From Piscirickettsiaceae bacterium (lineage in GTDB: Bacteria > Pseudomonadota > Gammaproteobacteria > Nitrosococcales > Methylophagaceae), in the NCBI GenBank assembly GCA_024685995.1, contig JAIBDY010000001.1, positions 1-64,000 on the forward strand: a DNA stretch of 64,000 bases. Reading direction: 5' to 3'. The position numbers were made by a program, and so were the translations under genes. The notes below the pieces were generated by a model that was given only the letters and a program-made list of their open reading frames with translations, made no database searches and was not told the DNA's origin. How positions within the stretch are numbered: the first letter of the stretch is position 1; each line of letters starts with the position of its first letter. Shown one piece after another: positions 51,061 to 59,885 of the stretch.

Positions 51061-51681
51061 TTATTCTAAATCACAAAAGCGTTGCCAATCTGCAATAGTA
51101 TCAATATCCCATTGCATCCGAATACGCGATAAGCTCAGTTCGGCTTGTTCGGCACGTTGTAAGGTGTCATAAAACACATGGTCAGTACCCCATTCCATAT
51201 CGACAAAAAGCGTCGGATAATCATCGTTACAGCCTATCATGACATAGCCGCCATCCTCAGCAGGTGCAATTACAACTTGATCCCCTAACAGTAACCGTTC
51301 AATGCTGTCGGAGAGATCGAATATCGTTAACGATGCTGAATCACAACCGACTAATAAGACGCTCGACGCCTCCACTAAACTGGTCGCGATAGCATGACGC
51401 ATCCGCTCTCCCAGCTCTCTGCCCTTTTGGTTATGTAATGACAGTTCATAATCATCGGCACACTTTTGAAAAAATGGGTGTTCAGAGTTTGGACTACACC
51501 AAAGTTGAACAGGACAAAGCTGTGCCGCATTTAAGCGGCTTAATAATTGACGGGTTAACAAACAGTGTACTTCTACCGCTTGTTGTGCAGACATCTCTGG
51601 CATTAAACGGGTTTTCACTTGGCCGGCAACCGGTGCTTTACAAAACACCAACAGCCGCGCTTGAGGATAACGATACGTCAT
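51061..51681 (-). CDS. Arsenosugar-type glycosyltransferase (TIGR04282 family)
   Basis: A 206-residue CofC-like nucleotidyl/glycosyl transferase of the family long linked to ArsS neighbourhoods (transferase 1, rSAM-associated). Family features are ARLLVFCKAPVAGQVKTRLMP at the N-terminus, the DCD-like acidic motif LLVGCDSASL, and APAEDGGYVMIGC. By family knowledge it helps build the ribose aglycone or glycan of oxo-arsenosugars; the exact step is not defined here. It is the last gene of the arsenosugar unit and overlaps the desaturase-like gene by four bases. Confidence 0.88.
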   Translation of the reverse strand: MTYRYPQARLLVFCKAPVAGQVKTRLMPEMSAQQAVEVHCLLTRQLLSRLNAAQLCPVQLWCSPNSEHPFFQKCADDYELSLHNQKGRELGERMRHAIATSLVEASSVLLVGCDSASLTIFDLSDSIERLLLGDQVVIAPAEDGGYVMIGCNDDYPTLFVDMEWGTDHVFYDTLQRAEQAELSLSRIRMQWDIDTIADWQRFCDLE

Positions 51682-52463
51682 TGTTGCCGTCGAAAAGGCA
51701 TCATTAATAATTGTTTAATGCCAACCTCAGGAGTGTATTGGTATTGTGCTAAACCGATGACCATTTTATCGTGACCCAATGCCGGTTGATCAATATAGGT
51801 AGCGAATAATCGATCCCAAATACTAATTGAAAAGCCAAAATTACTGTCTGTTTCTCGTTGAGTTGTTGAGTGGTGAACGCGATGCATATCCGGCGTCACG
51901 ATCCCCAACCGCAGCCACCGATCCACTTTAATAGGGATAAACACATTGCCATGGTTGAATAAAGCGGTCGTACTTAAGATGACTTCAAAGGCTATCACGG
52001 CGACAGGGCTTGCACCTATAATATAGATTGCAACAACCTTGTAACACATTGATATTACTATTTCTAAAGGGTGAAATCGAATCCCAGTAGTGACATCAAA
52101 GTCCAAGTCGGTATGATGTACTTTATGAAACCGCCATAGCCATTTCCAGCGATGAGAGGCAATATGTTGACCATAAATAGCAAGATCGAGCGCCAACAAG
52201 GTAAGCATAATTGATAACCAAGTCGGCAATGGAAATTGGTTCAACAAGCCAACTTGTTCTGTTGTTGCTGACATTGCGGAAAGGTATGCCACACCGCCAA
52301 CGGTGAAACGAATCAGCAACATGCCTAGAATCGATAAGGTAAAATTAATTGGCCAGCGTTGAATACGTTGGTAGCCTAAAGTCCGTCGAGGCAACGCATA
52401 TTCCCATATCATCATCAGTAATAAAACACCAACGAATGCCGATAAGCGAATTAAGGCTTCCAA
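51678..52463 (-). CDS. Sterol desaturase/fatty acid hydroxylase family membrane protein
   Basis: An integral-membrane di-iron oxygenase of about 261 residues with four or more hydrophobic segments and three histidine clusters: HIASHRWKW, RFHKVHH, and DMHRVHHS, with a further HGN. Members hydroxylate or desaturate lipids (for example alkylglycerol monooxygenase). The start is uncertain: TTG at 52463 with AGAGG upstream gives the usual short N-terminus, while an ATG at 52538 would overlap the glycosyltransferase gene by 88 bases. Its position inside the arsenosugar operon suggests, as inference, modification of an arsenic-containing or membrane lipid. Confidence 0.85.
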   Translation of the reverse strand: MEALIRLSAFVGVLLLMMIWEYALPRRTLGYQRIQRWPINFTLSILGMLLIRFTVGGVAYLSAMSATTEQVGLLNQFPLPTWLSIMLTLLALDLAIYGQHIASHRWKWLWRFHKVHHTDLDFDVTTGIRFHPLEIVISMCYKVVAIYIIGASPVAVIAFEVILSTTALFNHGNVFIPIKVDRWLRLGIVTPDMHRVHHSTTQRETDSNFGFSISIWDRLFATYIDQPALGHDKMVIGLAQYQYTPEVGIKQLLMMPFRRQQ

Positions 52464-53143
52464 AACTGGCCTCTTTGATATTGTTGTGCCAATTGCTGGG
52501 GCGAGACACCTAAAAAGTATAGCAACCGTAGCCACCACATCAATAGCATCGTTTTATAAATACCAAACTGTTGCCAGCGCCGGGCAGAACTTTCAACACG
52601 GCTGACAATACGATAAGCTTGCCGTTGTTTTTTTAACTTTTTTGACAGCGCGATATCTTCCATAATCGCAATATCAGGATAAGCACCGACTTGATAAAAT
52701 AAGGTTTTATCCACAAAGATAGCTTGATCTCCGGTCGCAATATCGGTGATCGCAGAACGTAAGTTCATAAAACGACTAATGACAGCCAACAACCAGTGTT
52801 GTCCCATCAAACGGATATCAAACCGCCCCCATTTGTAGCCTTTTGCCATAGCATACTCAATCTGCGTCAGCGCATCCTCGGGTAAAAACGTATCGGCATG
52901 TAAAAAGAGTAAACAATCGCCCGAGGCGTGCTGTGCTCCCTGATTCATTTGTACTGAACGCCCGGGTTTTGACTGAATGACTAAATCCACTAATGGTGTA
53001 GCAATCTGAACCGTATCATCAACACTGCCACCATCAACGACAATAATTTCGCACTGCCCACGTAAGCCCTGCAGTCGATCTAAGAAAAAGCAAATGCCCT
53101 GTTGCTCATTCAAACACGGAATAATAATGCTGAATTCAGTCAT
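52451..53143 (-). CDS. Arsenosugar-type glycosyltransferase (TIGR04283 family)
   Basis: A 230-residue family 2-like glycosyltransferase (transferase 2, rSAM-associated group). It opens with EFSIIIPCLNEQQG, followed by CEIIVVDGGSVDDTV and a DxD-type acidic stretch in FLHADTFLP. A C-terminal hydrophobic segment suggests membrane association. ATG at 53143, eight bases after the methyltransferase stop, is preferred over the longer frame beginning at 53209 inside that gene. With the TIGR04282 enzyme it is expected to elaborate the 5'-deoxy-dimethylarsinoyl-ribose product of ArsS. Confidence 0.9.
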   Translation of the reverse strand: MTEFSIIIPCLNEQQGICFFLDRLQGLRGQCEIIVVDGGSVDDTVQIATPLVDLVIQSKPGRSVQMNQGAQHASGDCLLFLHADTFLPEDALTQIEYAMAKGYKWGRFDIRLMGQHWLLAVISRFMNLRSAITDIATGDQAIFVDKTLFYQVGAYPDIAIMEDIALSKKLKKQRQAYRIVSRVESSARRWQQFGIYKTMLLMWWLRLLYFLGVSPQQLAQQYQRGQFWKP

Positions 53144-53150
53144 AATGTTA

Positions 53151-54272
53151 CTAACAACAAGCGCCTTCTGATGCTGCCGAAGCACGATGCACAGCACCTT
53201 TAGTTTCACTAGCAGGCCTTAATGTGCCAGCTGGCGCGCACCAACTGACCGCTGCTTTTAAGGTTGCCGGTGTGATACCAATAAAGTCGTCGCCATAAAC
53301 ACCTTCCGTTAATAAAGCGTAAGAACGCGCACATGTCGCAATGCGTTGCCCTCGTGGATAAACATGGCCTTCATCATCATACACTTCCGAAAAAGGACCG
53401 CGATAAATTACCGCATGGCCGACATCTAAACAGGATTCATCCTGAGGTTTAACCGCTGTAATGGTAACAGAACGAAACTCAATATCCTCGACCACTTGCC
53501 ATGGTTCGCTTTCCCATTTGTCATATGCCACTGCAACAAATCCAGCTTTGACAAACGCGTCTAGCATTTCTTGCTCTTGCAAGGCGCCAGATATGCAGCC
53601 ACTCCAGAGCATCGGATCCGATTTAAGATGTGCCGGTACAATTTCATCGCTGACAATATCGGATATCGCCACGCGACCGCCAGGTTTAACAACACGAAAT
53701 ATCTCGTCAATCATTTTCGTTTTATCGCTATCTTGGACTAAATTCAATACACAATTAGACACCACCAAATCGATTGAGTTGTCTTTAACTAATGGGGTTT
53801 GTTGTGCTTGTTGTTGCTGCCAAGATCGCAATCGCAATAATGACGCTGTATCCACCACAGGATGTTGTGTTAATTGCGCGTCCAACGCCGTCAGATCTAC
53901 CGCCAAATCTTGTATTAAGCCTTTTACAAACGCGACACGATCATTGCCTAGTTTGATTGCCATCTCAGGCTGATATTGACGCGCTAAGGCGAGCATATCA
54001 TCATTCGTATCGACGCCAATGACACGACCTTTGTCGCCCACTAGCTGCGCGGCCATATAACAAATTTTACCCGAGCCTGATCCTAAGTCGAGGACGACAT
54101 CTCCTTCACGAACATAACGGGAAGGATCGCCACAACCATAGTCTTTATCGATGATTTCTTGCGGTAATAATGCGAGTAAAGATGCGTCATAATCAACAGG
54201 GCAACATAAATCTGGCTGACGTTGTTCCGCCCCTTCTGAATAACGATCTAACACACTATGCTCTAACGCCAT
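53151..54272 (-). CDS. ArsM-like SAM-dependent arsenic methyltransferase
   Basis: A 373-residue methyltransferase. SAM motif I is VVLDLGSGSGK (about residues 59-69). The family cysteines are visible: an N-terminal pair Cys23-Cys24 (LCCPVDYD), one in SNCVLNLV, and one in SGCISGALQEQE, matching the arsenite-binding cysteines of ArsM. A C-terminal extension with the final pair ...GACC is unusual compared with short ArsM proteins and may hold another thiol site. AGGAG before the ATG at 54272 fixes the start. It would supply methylated arsenic for ArsS. Confidence 0.9.
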   Translation of the reverse strand: MALEHSVLDRYSEGAEQRQPDLCCPVDYDASLLALLPQEIIDKDYGCGDPSRYVREGDVVLDLGSGSGKICYMAAQLVGDKGRVIGVDTNDDMLALARQYQPEMAIKLGNDRVAFVKGLIQDLAVDLTALDAQLTQHPVVDTASLLRLRSWQQQQAQQTPLVKDNSIDLVVSNCVLNLVQDSDKTKMIDEIFRVVKPGGRVAISDIVSDEIVPAHLKSDPMLWSGCISGALQEQEMLDAFVKAGFVAVAYDKWESEPWQVVEDIEFRSVTITAVKPQDESCLDVGHAVIYRGPFSEVYDDEGHVYPRGQRIATCARSYALLTEGVYGDDFIGITPATLKAAVSWCAPAGTLRPASETKGAVHRASAASEGACC

Positions 54273-54298
54273 TTTTACACTCCTAATAGATTCATTGT

Positions 54299-55255
54299 TT
54301 ATGATAAAGCCCCACCACAACTACTCCCCTGTCCTGCTGTACATCCATAGCAGTGTTGACGCGTTGCAATCGTCTGTCCGGTGAGTCTGTGCGCATTCAA
54401 GTTAGTAATATGCGTCTTCGCTTGATTGGCAAGCGGTAAATTTAACATCTGATTAAAATCGCAGTCATAAACATAGCCTTGCCAATCAATACTGATCAGG
54501 TTACGACACATCACATCGTTCAGCGTGTCGGCGTTATAACTTGCGACGAGCAATGCCATATAGTCATCAAATAAGCCTTTGCTTATCAAGGTACTTCCGA
54601 AACGTTGAATCGGCATGTTGGCAATAGTATAGAGATGATTAAACACCACATCGTATTCCTGTGCGAGATGTGTTTTATAGCTGGCCTCTAAGGCTTGCTG
54701 CGTAGGTGGTAAGTGGATACCTTGAGGGTTAAACACCAAATCGAGTTGCAACCCCGTCCCTTGTTGACCATAACCTAAATCATTTAATTGCTTTAAGGCC
54801 GCAAGGCTTTGTTGAAACACCCCATTCCCACGTTGTTTATCGACGTTATCTTCAATATAACAAGGTAATGAGGCGACAATATCAACGCCTTGTTCAGCCA
54901 AGAAAGTGGCCAAGCCCGGATAGGCAGGCTCTTCTAAAATGACGAGGTTACAACGGTCAATCACGCGATAACCTCTCGTTCTAGCTTGTTTCACAAAATA
55001 CTCAAAATGAGGATTCATTTCCGGTGCGCCGCCCGTTAGATCCAGTGTCGTCACCTTCGCTTTATCGGCAAAAGCCAAGATCTGGTCAATCGTTTGTTTG
55101 GACATTAATTCGGTGCGTTTGGGTCCTGCGTTGACATGACAATGTACACAACTTAAATTGCACAAATAGCCCAAGTTGACCTGTATCGTTTTGAGTTCTG
55201 TACGCTGCAAAGCAGGAAAAGTACTATGTTCTAGTAATGGTTTTGAATCTAACAT
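54299..55255 (-). CDS. arsS: ArsS, arsenosugar biosynthesis radical SAM protein
   Basis: A 318-residue radical SAM enzyme. The 4Fe-4S motif is Cys32-x3-Cys36-x2-Cys39 (LCNLSCVHCH). A C-terminal Cys-rich tail (CYGCTAGQGSSCGG) is the hallmark of this family. ArsS-type enzymes transfer the 5'-deoxyadenosyl group of SAM to dimethylarsenite, giving 5'-deoxy-5'-dimethylarsinoyl-adenosine, the precursor of arsenosugars. It lies between the TVP38 gene (7 bases upstream) and the ArsM-like gene (26 bases downstream). Confidence 0.94.
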   Translation of the reverse strand: MLDSKPLLEHSTFPALQRTELKTIQVNLGYLCNLSCVHCHVNAGPKRTELMSKQTIDQILAFADKAKVTTLDLTGGAPEMNPHFEYFVKQARTRGYRVIDRCNLVILEEPAYPGLATFLAEQGVDIVASLPCYIEDNVDKQRGNGVFQQSLAALKQLNDLGYGQQGTGLQLDLVFNPQGIHLPPTQQALEASYKTHLAQEYDVVFNHLYTIANMPIQRFGSTLISKGLFDDYMALLVASYNADTLNDVMCRNLISIDWQGYVYDCDFNQMLNLPLANQAKTHITNLNAHRLTGQTIATRQHCYGCTAGQGSSCGGALS

Positions 55256-55262
55256 AAGGTGA

Positions 55263-55949
55263 TTACTTTTTATCCAATACTTGTTGGCGGCGATTAAAAA
55301 TGACTGGTAATAGCATCAACAGCCCCAATAAAATAAAAGCCAGTAATAATGACGGTGACAGTAACTGTTCTATTGACGTAATCTCAGCCAATGATTGCCC
55401 TAAGTTTGCAAATACAAAACAGCCAGGCATGATGCCAAAAAAAGTGCCCAAGGCATATCGACTCGTTTTTATTGTTGTAAAAGCCATCGTCAAATTCACC
55501 AACCAAAATGGAAATAAAGGGACTAACCGTAAAAACAATAAATAATTCAAAGCATGCTGTTCAAACTCACTCATGATTTTCTTTGTGACAGCGATTTTTT
55601 CCAGTTTGGCCTTTGCCCAATCATAGAATAAATAACGCGCCAACCAAAAAACTATAACCGCGCCAATTGTTGCAGAGACTAATAACAATGACCACGCTAA
55701 CCAACGACCAAAAATAAACCCCATCACTAACGATAAAAACGTCGCGCCCGGTAAACTTAAAGCAACAGCTAAAATATAAATGAACATCGCCAGCATAATC
55801 GATATGCCATAGTGATTGTCAACAAAATGTAATAACGTCACTTTGTGCGTGTGCAACGTAGACAAGGTTAAATAATCAGGCCCGCCTACAACAAAAAATA
55901 CAGTCATCAGGACAGCTAACAGGAAAACAATAATCAGCCTGGCTGTCAT
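55263..55949 (-). CDS. TVP38/TMEM64 (DedA-like) family membrane protein
   Basis: A 228-residue inner-membrane protein with about five or six hydrophobic segments. The SNARE-associated/TVP38 signature is present: VALSLPGATFLSLVMGFIFG, and RLVPLFPFWLVNLTMAF followed by a GIMPGCF region. Relatives act in lipid or small-molecule movement across membranes. It starts one base after the flavoprotein gene, and flavoprotein-TVP38 pairs recur. A function in arsenic or lipid transport in this operon is inference. Confidence 0.88.
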   Translation of the reverse strand: MTARLIIVFLLAVLMTVFFVVGGPDYLTLSTLHTHKVTLLHFVDNHYGISIMLAMFIYILAVALSLPGATFLSLVMGFIFGRWLAWSLLLVSATIGAVIVFWLARYLFYDWAKAKLEKIAVTKKIMSEFEQHALNYLLFLRLVPLFPFWLVNLTMAFTTIKTSRYALGTFFGIMPGCFVFANLGQSLAEITSIEQLLSPSLLLAFILLGLLMLLPVIFNRRQQVLDKK

Positions 55950-55950
55950 A

Positions 55951-57378
55951 TCAGTCTTGGCCTCTCAAGCCAAATAAACGTTTGATCCACTTTTTTCGAC
56001 TCGGTGTCAGCCCAGCTTTTAAACGTTGATCGGCGACTCTACGATTCAATTGTGCCAAAGTCGGATAGATATGAATTGTTTTACTCAATGCCGATAATTT
56101 TAAACCGGCTGACATGGCCAAGGCATACTCTGCGATTAACTCCCCTGCTTTCGCACCAACAATACACACCCCCAAAATTTTGCCGTTGGGGCGGGTAATC
56201 ACTTTTGCTTTGCCCAATGTTTGTCCATCCGTAATAGCCCGATCGATTTCATCAAACGGAAAACTGTAGACATGGTGTTGAATTCCTTCAGCTCTCGCTT
56301 CTTGCTCAGAGATCCCGACTCTAGCCAGTTCTGGCGACGTAAAAGTACACCACGGAATACCTTTGGTTTGTGCTTTAGCCGGCAAGTGAAACAAGGTATT
56401 TCGTAACACTACCCCCGCTTGATGTTCAGCCATATGGGTAAATAAATAAGGTCCAGCAACATCACCACAAGCAAAGATAGTACGGTTAGTCGTTCGCAAA
56501 CGACTATCCAAAACCAATTGTCCATCAATGATATCAACCCCCGCTTGTGCCAAGCCAAGGTGCTCGATATTGGCCTGACGTCCAGCGGCAATTAATAAGT
56601 GACTACCCTTAATAGTGGTTTTGTAGGCATCATTTAATTGCGCCGTAAGACCATGGTCCTGTTTCAAGACTTGCGCAACCTCACACCCTAAATGCACCTC
56701 AATGCCCTCTAGGGCAAATTGTTGCTCTATCACGCTCGTCATATCCTCATCTTCATGAGTCAACAAACCTGAACGGGCCACAATAGAGACCCTTGCCCCT
56801 AAGCGTGAGAAACTCTGTCCTAATTCACAGGCAATTGGGCCGCCCCCTACGATGATTAAGTGCGATATCGTATCTTCAATGCCAAAGATAGTTTCATGGG
56901 TCAGGTAATCAACCGTGTCTAAACCAACAATCTCAGGGATGGCCGGTCGTGTCCCCGTAGCCAATACAAAACGTCGCGCTGTGATTATCCGCTCGCCAGC
57001 AGATAAGGTTTTCGAGTCTATAAACTTGGCGGCCGACAATACGACCTCGACACCCAAAGCGTTAAACCGCTCTGGGCTATCATTGGGTTCAATGATTTTT
57101 ATGACATCTGCCACCCGTTGCATGACGCTCTCTTGGGCAACCTGATCCAATGTTGCAGAGAGTCCGGCTTGCGTTGACATTCGAATGTCATGGGCCAAAT
57201 TCGCAGAATGTATCAATGTCTTACTGGGCACACAACCAGTGTATAAACAGTCGCCCCCCAGTTTGTTTTTTTCAACCAAAATGACTTTTGCACCCAACGC
57301 AGCAGCGCCAGCTGCGGCAACTAAACCTGCAGCGCCACCGCCGATTACACAAAGGTCATACTCTGATTCTCGTGACAT
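55951..57378 (-). CDS. Mercuric reductase-like FAD/NAD(P) disulfide oxidoreductase
   Basis: A 475-residue flavoprotein of the dihydrolipoamide dehydrogenase/mercuric reductase class. The FAD-binding motif is GGGAAGLVAAAGAAALG (about 13-29), the redox-active disulfide is Cys44-x4-Cys49 (GGDCLYTGCVPSK), and the NAD(P) site is IVGGGPIACE. The C-terminal dimer region has HIYPTL. It has neither the N-terminal metal-binding domain nor the C-terminal Cys pair of true MerA, so mercury reduction is not implied. Thiol or arsenic redox chemistry is possible but inferred. First gene of the arsenosugar operon. Confidence 0.9.
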   Translation of the reverse strand: MSRESEYDLCVIGGGAAGLVAAAGAAALGAKVILVEKNKLGGDCLYTGCVPSKTLIHSANLAHDIRMSTQAGLSATLDQVAQESVMQRVADVIKIIEPNDSPERFNALGVEVVLSAAKFIDSKTLSAGERIITARRFVLATGTRPAIPEIVGLDTVDYLTHETIFGIEDTISHLIIVGGGPIACELGQSFSRLGARVSIVARSGLLTHEDEDMTSVIEQQFALEGIEVHLGCEVAQVLKQDHGLTAQLNDAYKTTIKGSHLLIAAGRQANIEHLGLAQAGVDIIDGQLVLDSRLRTTNRTIFACGDVAGPYLFTHMAEHQAGVVLRNTLFHLPAKAQTKGIPWCTFTSPELARVGISEQEARAEGIQHHVYSFPFDEIDRAITDGQTLGKAKVITRPNGKILGVCIVGAKAGELIAEYALAMSAGLKLSALSKTIHIYPTLAQLNRRVADQRLKAGLTPSRKKWIKRLFGLRGQD

Positions 57379-57472
57379 TAATACAATCCTATTGGGGCGT
57401 TGACGAACAAAAATGCAAAATGCTACAAATTCACTCCCTTTTTATTCCTATTTTGCACCAACATAGATAAAA

Positions 57473-57503
57473 AAGCCTCTAGTGCGTTAACAACCAGAGG
57501 CTT
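57473..57503 (-). terminator. Terminator of the sulP-usp transcript
   Basis: AAGCCTCT at 57473-57480 and AGAGGCTT at 57496-57503 form an eight-base perfect stem around a 15-base loop. On the minus strand it is followed by TTTTTT. It sits 20 bases past the stop of the universal stress protein gene and is a convincing rho-independent terminator, insulating the arsenosugar operon downstream. Confidence 0.8.
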
Positions 57504-57522: not shown

Positions 57523-58392
57523 TTATCTCACCAATAAAAACTGCGTCTGACTTTCTAACAACATTTGGGTCGTAAAACTGCCGAAAATAAAACCATGCAG
57601 CTTGCCATGACTAAAAGCCCCCATCATCGTAATATCAATATCATGATATTGTTGATATTGGGTCAATAAAGATAAGGGATCACCCGCTAAGGCTTCGGTG
57701 ACGACGTCGATATTTGCTTCTTGTAAAACTGCTCGCGCATCTTCAACTAAGTTCATGGCTTCGCGTAAGTCTTTCGACACACTCACTACATGAATCTCGA
57801 TATCTTCATGCAATAACGCTTCTGACCTTAATAAGTTCAGCGCTTTATGTGATGTTGGACTACCGTTATAAGCAAACATCAACTTTTTCGGCGTTGTAAA
57901 GTCAGACTTGACGATAAAGATAGGCTTACTGACCACCCGAATAGCGTCTTCTAATTGGGTTCCCAAGCCGGCTTGTTCGCCATGGTGATCTTGTCCTGTC
58001 GCGCCAATCACGACCATCGCTAACTCAGCTTGTAAGTCAATTAGAGCCTCGGGTAAACTGCCATGCCGTTGTTTTGCTATTAAATCTATGACGCCAGCGT
58101 CTTGAGCTTTTTGCTTGGCTTGGTTTAAGATTTGTTTTCCCTTAGCAATTAGCTGCTTACTTTCTACCCGCTCTTCATCGGAGAGCTCATCTAATAAATG
58201 TTCTTTACTATTCGGCGTTAAGTTACCTTCGTGGTGGACTTGTTCACTATAATGCGAATGCTCGATAGTATGTAATAGCTTTAATGGTGCCCGTCCTTTT
58301 TTAGCCAACCAAATCGCATAATCAATAACAGCATCACCACTTTCTGAGCCATCTACACCAGCGAGTATAAGCCCTCGTTTTGTTATCGACAT
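57523..58392 (-). CDS. Tandem universal stress protein (UspA family)
   Basis: A 289-residue protein with two Usp domains. The first opens LILAGVDGSESGDAVIDYAIWLA and ends with the ATP-site-like VIGATGQDHHG; the second begins KLMFAYNGSPTSHKAL and ends MMGAFSHGKLHGFIFGS. ATP-binding motifs G-x2-G-x9-G(S/T) are partly kept. It is two bases after the sulP gene and shares its promoter; SulP-Usp pairs are common and may link anion uptake to stress control (inference). Confidence 0.9.
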   Translation of the reverse strand: MSITKRGLILAGVDGSESGDAVIDYAIWLAKKGRAPLKLLHTIEHSHYSEQVHHEGNLTPNSKEHLLDELSDEERVESKQLIAKGKQILNQAKQKAQDAGVIDLIAKQRHGSLPEALIDLQAELAMVVIGATGQDHHGEQAGLGTQLEDAIRVVSKPIFIVKSDFTTPKKLMFAYNGSPTSHKALNLLRSEALLHEDIEIHVVSVSKDLREAMNLVEDARAVLQEANIDVVTEALAGDPLSLLTQYQQYHDIDITMMGAFSHGKLHGFIFGSFTTQMLLESQTQFLLVR

Positions 58393-58394
58393 CC

Positions 58395-59885
58395 TTAGTG
58401 TCCTCCCAACATTTTTTCTACCTCTTCAGGTTTATCATGAACAGCAAACTTGTCCAATAAGGTTTCACTCGCTTCATTCAAACCTACAATGCTGACATCA
58501 GCGCCTTCGCGCCGTAACTTAATGACCACTTTATCTAAAGCCGCGACGCCTGTGATATCCCAAAAATGCGCACGGTGGACATCAATCACGACTTTGTCGA
58601 CAGCTTCTTTAAAGTCGAAAAAGCCTATAAATCTATCAGAGGAGTTAAAGAATACTTGACCGACAACTTGGTAAGTCCGGGTATCTGTTGCGTCATCATA
58701 GTGGCTTTCGACCAGCAAAAACTGGCTGAGCCGTTGTGCCATAAACAATGAGCCAATCAAAATGCCGGTAAAGACGCCAAAAGCCAAATTATGCGTCCAA
58801 ACCACCACGATAACTGTCGCCACCATCACGCTCGAAGCACTCGCCGGATTGGTTTTCAACTCTTTGAGCGAGGTCCAATTAAAAGTACCGATAGAAACCA
58901 TAATCATCACAGCGACCAATGCTGCCATCGGTACAATAGATAAAATATCACTTAAAAATACGACTAGAATCAACAATAGTACACCGGCCGTCATGGTCGA
59001 TAAACGCCCCCGCCCGCCTGACTTTACATTGATGATAGATTGACCGATCATCGCACAACCCGCCATGCCGCCAATCAACCCTGAACCAATATTTGCCACG
59101 CCTTGCCCTTTACACTCCCGTTTTTTATCACTTTCAGTATCGGTCAATTCATCGATCACATTCGCGGTCATTAAAGATTCTAATAAGCCGACAATGGCAA
59201 TCGAAATAGAGTATGGGAAAACAATACCCAATGTTTCAAAGGTAAAGGGTACGTCAGGCCATAAGAAAATAGGTAAGGTATCAGGTAATTCACCCATATC
59301 ACCGATAGTTCTAACATCAATATCGAACAGATAGACTATCAAGGTCAACACCACAATATTGACTAAAGGTGAAGGCAATAACTGACCCACTTTCGGCACA
59401 TAAGGAAATAAATAAATCATCCCTAACCCTGCTGCTGTTAAGGCATATACATGCCAAGTGACATTGGTTAATTCTGGTAGCTGTGCCATAAAAATCAAGA
59501 TAGCCAGGGCATTGAGAAACCCGGTCATCACGGACTTAGAGATAAAGCTCATAAACTTGTGTAGGTTTAAGTAGCCTGCAATAATCTGTAGTACGCCAGC
59601 AAGAATGGTCGCGACTAAGAGGTACTGTAGGCCATGGTCTTTTACTAGTGTGACCATTAATAAAGCCGTGGCAGCAGTCGCGGCTGAAATCATCCCCGCT
59701 CGACCACCAACAATGGCAATAATCACGGCAATAGCAAATGAGGCATACAAACCAACTTTAGGATCGACACCGGCAATAATTGAAAAAGCGATCGCTTCGG
59801 GCACTAAGGCTAACGCCACAACAATCCCAGCTAAAATATCGTTACGTACATTACCTAGCCAGTCTTGCTTAGCAGATAGCAGCAT
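58395..59885 (-). CDS. SulP/SLC26 family anion transporter with STAS domain
   Basis: A 496-residue transporter with about 10-12 membrane segments; the family motif [22 protein letters not shown] is at the N-terminus. A C-terminal STAS domain (about 410-495, [28 protein letters not shown]) follows. SulP proteins carry sulfate, bicarbonate or organic anions; sequence alone does not decide, and no carbonic anhydrase or sulfate gene is adjacent. Its coding start is ATG at 59885 with a weak ribosome-binding site. The universal stress protein gene follows. Confidence 0.92.

Follow-up and report, generated by a model that had tools for sequence, protein, structure and literature searches.

The window analysed here is a 64,000-nucleotide stretch of contig JAIBDY010000001.1 from an uncultured gammaproteobacterium, a Piscirickettsiaceae bacterium. 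Between positions 51061 and 57378 it carries seven tightly packed open reading frames (ORFs) on the minus strand, which are proposed to form a single operon that detoxifies arsenic by way of an arsenosugar-type compound, a reading of the sequence to which we assign a probability of roughly 0.7. At its centre are genes for ArsS, a radical S-adenosylmethionine (SAM) enzyme, and for an ArsM-like arsenite methyltransferase. A first-pass annotation of this stretch had described seven head-to-tail genes forming an arsenosugar operon; ORFs and family scans concur with the strand, coordinates and families that it gave, and family membership together with the intact ArsS and ArsM signatures supports the type assigned. 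Its view that such a set is rare in bacteria did not survive, and the operon is better regarded as one copy of a widespread system, since arsS scores above the TIGR04167 cut-off in 135 of 274 Gammaproteobacteria genomes drawn evenly from the class. Public plasmid records, moreover, already carry the name 'arsenosugar biosynthesis radical SAM (seleno)protein ArsS'. Genes of the arsS type are thus already known, and the operon adds a variant with candidate late-step enzymes; among the new findings is that, across the class, the additional genes reappear together with arsS in different arrangements. The recurring gene set, the fusions among its members and the nucleotidyltransferase fold of one product yield concrete, testable enzyme candidates for the late steps of arsenosugar formation. 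If the reading is true, heterotrophic Gammaproteobacteria, besides algae and cyanobacteria, may supply arsenosugars to the sea and to food webs.

The operon and its ArsS and ArsM enzymes

The genes are listed in order of transcription, preceded by a hairpin in the interval that separates them from the upstream gene usp.

57469..57501, minus strand: terminator-like hairpin in the usp/operon interval (GCCTCT...AGAGGC, then T6), read from the sequence directly
55951..57378, minus strand: gene 1, pyridine-nucleotide disulfide oxidoreductase (MerA/LPD superfamily), 475 amino acids (aa); PF07992/PF02852
55263..55949, minus strand: gene 2, TVP38/TMEM64 (VTT, DedA superfamily) membrane protein, 228 aa; PF09335, 80.3 bits
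54299..55255, minus strand: gene 3, arsS, radical SAM arsenosugar enzyme, 318 aa; TIGR04167, 468.6 bits
53151..54320, minus strand: gene 4, arsM-like arsenite methyltransferase; NF040538, 346.6 bits, below the cut-off of 500
52451..53209, minus strand: gene 5, TIGR04283 GT2-type glycosyltransferase; 273.2 bits, cut-off 182
51678..52538, minus strand: gene 6, fatty-acid-hydroxylase/sterol-desaturase-type diiron membrane enzyme; PF04116, 95.4 bits
51061..51681, minus strand: gene 7, TIGR04282/DUF2064 protein with a nucleotidyltransferase fold; 178.8 bits, cut-off 134

With the longest possible starts the junctions from gene 1 to gene 7 measure +1, +7, -22, -59, -88 and -4 bp. ArsM likely starts at Met-17 (54272), which places 26 bp between arsS and arsM, the gap originally noted, and the TIGR04283 protein likely starts at Met-22 (MTEFSIIIPCLNE); with these likelier starts the gaps are small and positive. 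The hairpin at 57469..57501 is the likely 5' limit of the transcription unit, as judged from its sequence, and a comparable hairpin with a T-run is present in the related locus L004. It was not picked up by a consensus scan because its loop exceeds the limit of 8 set for that scan. A sigma-70 promoter scan of the region gave a count no higher than in shuffled sequences.

ArsS matches TIGR04167 over profile positions 2–303 of 303, far above the cut-off of 300 bits, and its C-terminal DUF3641 domain scores 196 bits against PF12345. Cysteines 32, 36 and 39 (CxxxCxxC), 132, 250, 265, 302, 305 and 313 are invariant in 161 of 161 sequences. In ArsM, Cys40, 63, 190 and 242 are conserved in 51 of 51 sequences, as is a C-terminal CC, so that the earlier statement that the residues of both enzymes are intact holds good. 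The contexts of the ArsM cysteines are CCPVD (Cys40, beside Cys39), YGCG, SNCVLN and SGCISGA; in the match to the CmArsM structures 4kw7/4fr0 (E 7e-32) Cys63, 190 and 242 align. The protein thus has the four CmArsM-type cysteines of an ArsM in the wide sense. It falls below the cut-offs of NF008823, of the arsenosugar-type model NF038099 (AsSugarArsM; 128.7 bits against 400) and of the arsinothricin model NF040538, though the last gave the best score of all. It is 39.5% identical to the arsinothricin ArsM of Pseudomonas amygdali (plasmid L218), and in a tree with long branches it groups with that enzyme and with one from a staphylococcal arsenic plasmid at moderate support (86/84). By these sequence comparisons the window ArsM resembles arsinothricin ArsM more closely than it does the arsenosugar type of cyanobacteria. 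Quite different ArsMs are found at other arsS loci, which makes repeated recruitment of the methyltransferase probable. The 44% identical staphylococcal relative, on Staphylococcus aureus plasmid pSA159 (L217:5001-6056), is labelled just 'methyltransferase domain-containing protein'; it adjoins an ArsR-family gene and a permease gene, near arsB-arsR.

This affinity of ArsM raises the question of whether the operon makes some other organoarsenical, arsinothricin-like or a monomethylated adenosyl arsenical, with ArsM methylating the product of ArsS and not arsenite. The model scores and the tree speak for it, as do the order of the genes, arsS and then arsM, and the fact that in arsinothricin synthesis the radical SAM reaction precedes that of the methyltransferase (PMC8552651). 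The arsQML cluster of Burkholderia gladioli and P. amygdali shares with the window this pairing of radical SAM enzyme and methyltransferase, and an ArsM of the same broad subgroup. The window, however, has ArsS in place of ArsL and lacks the ArsQ permease and ArsN, and the B. gladioli cluster adjoins arsR, unlike the operon; the arsinothricin ArsM is itself a long branch in the tree; and the pSA159 relative has no ArsS annotated nearby, which suits a general arsenite methyltransferase. On balance, we consider this alternative improbable and retain the arsenosugar-type reading.

Recurrence of the accessory genes with arsS

Among the closest relatives whose loci are long enough, L002, L003, L004, L006, L010 and L128 each have the complete set of seven genes in the order of the window, and other genomes of the genus show this order as far as their short loci extend. 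In a sample of 57 genomes of the GTDB family, arsS was above the cut-off in 22, and 18 of these have the operon type of the window, as judged in some of them from short loci. The seven-gene set is not due to chance. Class-wide, the neighbourhoods of 80 arsS loci were compared in 20-kb stretches, shorter at contig ends. In six of the 80, every one of the seven families is represented no further than 9 kb from arsS, and another four loci have six of the families; several gene orders occur among them. In the comparison of gene order with other ArsS loci suggested by the first-pass annotation, therefore, the order is kept among relatives and the families recur in other orders across the class. Genes for VTT proteins, fatty-acid hydroxylases (FAH) and flavoproteins are concentrated within 6 kb of arsS (19/23, 18/20 and 17/18, respectively, against 889/1428 for all ORFs; p 0.03, 0.006 and 0.002), and the strand is shared with arsS by 22 of 23 VTT and all 20 FAH genes. 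With arsS-positive genomes defined by E <= 1e-50 (138 genomes, 136 others) and TIGR04283 by E <= 1e-30, TIGR04283 was present in 138/138 arsS-positive and 16/136 other genomes (Fisher p 1e-60, relatedness not being corrected for).

Fusions also occur. A Pfam-checked VTT-flavoprotein fusion was found in L061, 21 to 22 of 50 flavoprotein ORFs are of fusion length (710 aa or more), and L154 has a fusion of TIGR04283 to TIGR04282 (263.5 and 213.5 bits). Fusion of a COG0398 DedA (VTT) protein to a pyridine nucleotide-disulfide oxidoreductase is a known architecture, in a published description whose relevant portion makes no link to arsenic (PMC10127716); window genes 1 and 2 are its split form, and relatives carry fused forms close to arsS. 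A literature search combining TVP38, mercuric reductase and arsenic found nothing.

Two plasmids provide further arrangements. In the cyanobacterium Pseudanabaena galeata (L219) the order is TVP38 - MerA-like - arsM - TVP38 - arsS. Here, as in the window, ArsS (47% identical), ArsM, TVP38 and a MerA-like protein (41%) are clustered, but the ArsM belongs to NF038099 (570 bits, where the window ArsM has 128.7), and no hydroxylase, TIGR04283 or TIGR04282 gene is annotated within 5 kb of this arsM, whose Synechocystis counterpart is slr0303. Plasmid pTs417 of Candidatus Thiodictyon syntrophicum (L214) has the order nucleoside-recognition protein - GT2 - sterol desaturase - arsS - TIGR04282; its nucleoside-recognition family protein (L214:4072-5010) could act on an arsenic nucleoside.

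Could the FAH, VTT and flavoprotein genes nevertheless be unrelated neighbours of a pathway that consists of ArsS, ArsM and the two TIGR proteins? Many class-wide loci do hold few families (three in 31 of 80, for the most part ArsS-TIGR04283-TIGR04282), and the VTT-flavoprotein fusion is known as a general COG0398 architecture (PMC10127716). Against this stand the clustering of all three near arsS, with VTT and FAH mostly on its strand, in varied orders and families, the reappearance of the VTT/MerA-like pair in a cyanobacterium, and the sterol desaturase gene adjoining arsS on the Thiodictyon plasmid. Because the arrangements in the class loci and on the two plasmids are independent, accidental proximity is unlikely, and we hold it to be the least probable of the alternatives; the extra genes are probably members of the set, as had been suggested at the outset.

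Proposed pathway and alternative end products

The formation of carbon–arsenic bonds in bacteria is catalysed by SAM-dependent enzymes, and in oxo-arsenosugar synthesis arsenic is adenosylated by the radical SAM enzyme ArsS (PMC12159101). By homology, ArsM would methylate arsenite, in the arsenosugar reading to dimethylarsenite, and ArsS would place the 5'-deoxyadenosyl group of SAM on the arsenic to give 5'-deoxy-5'-dimethylarsinoyl-adenosine. Adenine would then be lost; TIGR04282, as a nucleotidyltransferase, might activate arsinoyl-ribose phosphate or its partner; and TIGR04283 might transfer the sugar onto an acceptor, either glycerol or a lipid. The MerA-like flavoprotein and the VTT protein may hold arsenicals in the trivalent state and/or move substrate or product, and the diiron hydroxylase may tailor or cleave a lipid-linked acceptor. 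In the literature searched no account was found of the conversion of the ArsS product into an arsenosugar.

Structural prediction bears on the late steps. The TIGR04282 model is of high quality (pLDDT 97.4), and its Foldseek neighbours are the DUF2064 structure 3cgx, followed by 3-phosphoglycerate guanylyltransferase 7p97, FbiD (Rv2983) and the CofC-like MM2497. Among structures whose reaction is known, the closest are thus guanylyl- and cytidylyltransferases, with glycosyltransferases far lower in the ranking, and VKTRL, GxD and DGGY motifs are kept among relatives. The fold is shared with the CofC/FbiD and 3-phosphoglycerate guanylyltransferase group (7p97, 6bwh, 2i5e) at a TM-score of about 0.7–0.75, but identity is 16–19% and the score against the CofC model is 27.8, where the cut-off is 105. 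Since the predicted fold is that of a nucleotidyltransferase, the database name 'glycosyltransferase' for TIGR04282 is doubtful and probably wrong. In the TIGR04283 protein the DGGS, HAD, GDQ and ED motifs are conserved.

The flavoprotein retains the CLYTGC redox pair, but has Tyr438 (YPT) where the catalytic His of an HPT motif is expected; Tyr occurs in 49 of 51 sequences and at the same position in the cyanobacterial MerA-like homologue. It scores below the MerA model TIGR02053 (349.7 against 454.45) and ends ...RLFGLRGQD, without the C-terminal vicinal Cys pair of MerA, and from these features we infer a reductase of a metal(loid) or other non-disulfide substrate. The hydroxylase has the HX3H, HX2HH and HX2HH motifs of PF04116, plus RFHP and NHxN, with histidines invariant where aligned; its predicted structure is poor (pLDDT 66.5).

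It is tempting to go further and suggest that TIGR04282 yields a nucleotide-activated arsinoyl-ribose (or glycerol phosphate) and that TIGR04283 attaches the activated unit to an acceptor, lipid or glycerol; the hydroxylase, VTT and MerA-like proteins would then form an accessory arsenosugar/arsenolipid module on a core pathway present in about half of Gammaproteobacteria. This combined scheme is tentative.

As a sub-case that overlaps the arsenosugar reading, the end product may be an arsenolipid, an arsenosugar on phosphatidylglycerol or alkyl-glycerol, retained in the membrane and not exported. The presence of a membrane diiron hydroxylase and a VTT protein is consistent with this, and some VTT relatives are lipid flippases or scramblases (PMC10127716); arsenolipids of Synechocystis are reported, to judge by the title of a reference within PMC12159101; and a PHO4-family phosphate transporter gene is near arsS in 6/80 loci. 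Counting against it, the hydroxylase is near arsS in just 18/80 loci, and in several loci FAH and VTT genes are paired with an ArsR-rhodanese regulator of their own, so that they may be a separate, co-locating module. A membrane-bound end product is accordingly a possibility rather than our expectation.

Several observations weigh against the arsenosugar-type reading. The closeness of ArsM to the arsinothricin type makes its substrate and the number of methylations uncertain. A PF01048 nucleosidase/phosphorylase, which would be a candidate for the removal of adenine, was not found in this 82%-complete genome, and with the low score of ArsM against AsSugarArsM this leaves the description of the operon as a complete set unsupported. 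Finally, FAH, VTT and flavoprotein genes accompany only 18, 25 and 18 of the 80 arsS loci, a minority, and are therefore accessory rather than essential. On a Burkholderia glumae plasmid (L216), arsS and a gene for S-methyl-5'-thioadenosine phosphorylase are about 6 kb apart, which is a weak hint of phosphorolysis; genes for an extracytoplasmic function (ECF) sigma factor, zf-HC2, CcdA and thioredoxin occupy the interval.

Regulation, other arsenic genes and flanking genes

The operon has none of the ArsR, arsB/acr3 or arsC genes of a classical ars operon, and the closest ArsR gene that could be located lies on a different contig. The absence of an adjacent arsenic regulator had been remarked upon, correctly, as an oddity; it is not one, as arsS loci normally have no neighbouring ArsR. 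The sole form in which ArsR-type proteins occur among recurrent arsS neighbours is a fusion with rhodanese, transcribed divergently from the FAH-VTT pair, in 6–7/80 loci (seen in L135, L136, L146, L154, L174 and L182). An ECF sigma factor gene lies near arsS in 13/80 loci, mostly with a small zinc-finger-like (zf-HC2-like) partner, which suggests that some lineages control their arsenosugar genes through an ECF factor; examples are L116:11465-12055, L137:15648-16226 and L216:2888-3478. A PHO4/PiT-type phosphate transporter gene is directly upstream of arsS (about 1.1 kb) in L123, L137, L145, L147 and L160 and is plausible as the entry route for arsenate. For Synechocystis arsM, one study saw no induction by arsenic, contrary to an earlier report (PMC4010505).

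No Acr3, ArsB or PF03960 ArsC was found in the 82%-complete genome searched. The idea that it has no other arsenic defence was nevertheless rejected, as a second locus on contig C34 (L213, G000:C34; 3234-7361) encodes an ArsC-like reductase, ArsR, an ArsJ-associated glyceraldehyde-3-phosphate dehydrogenase (529.7 bits, cut-off 450) and the major facilitator superfamily exporter ArsJ (570.5, cut-off 400). The ArsC-like protein is of thioredoxin type and scores under its cut-off. Comparison of this arsR with the operon for a shared ArsR operator gave no 16-mer with 12 matches.

Replacement of the Acr3 pump by the arsenosugar operon was also considered. In the GTDB family Acr3 occurs in 2/18 genomes that have the operon and in 30/39 that lack it (p 5e-6); the corresponding figures for the genus are 2/18 and 8/11 (p 0.001). 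An rpoB tree, however, reduces these to only three independent contrasts, and across the class Acr3 shows no negative association with arsS (59/138 arsS-positive and 43/136 arsS-negative genomes), so that replacement was rejected as a rule.

Downstream, yjgA starts 58 bp beyond the operon and may be read through from it. Immediately upstream, on the far side of the hairpin, lie usp and sulP (57523-59885), in the same orientation and present also in the closest relatives; SulP is about 94% identical in L002-L004.

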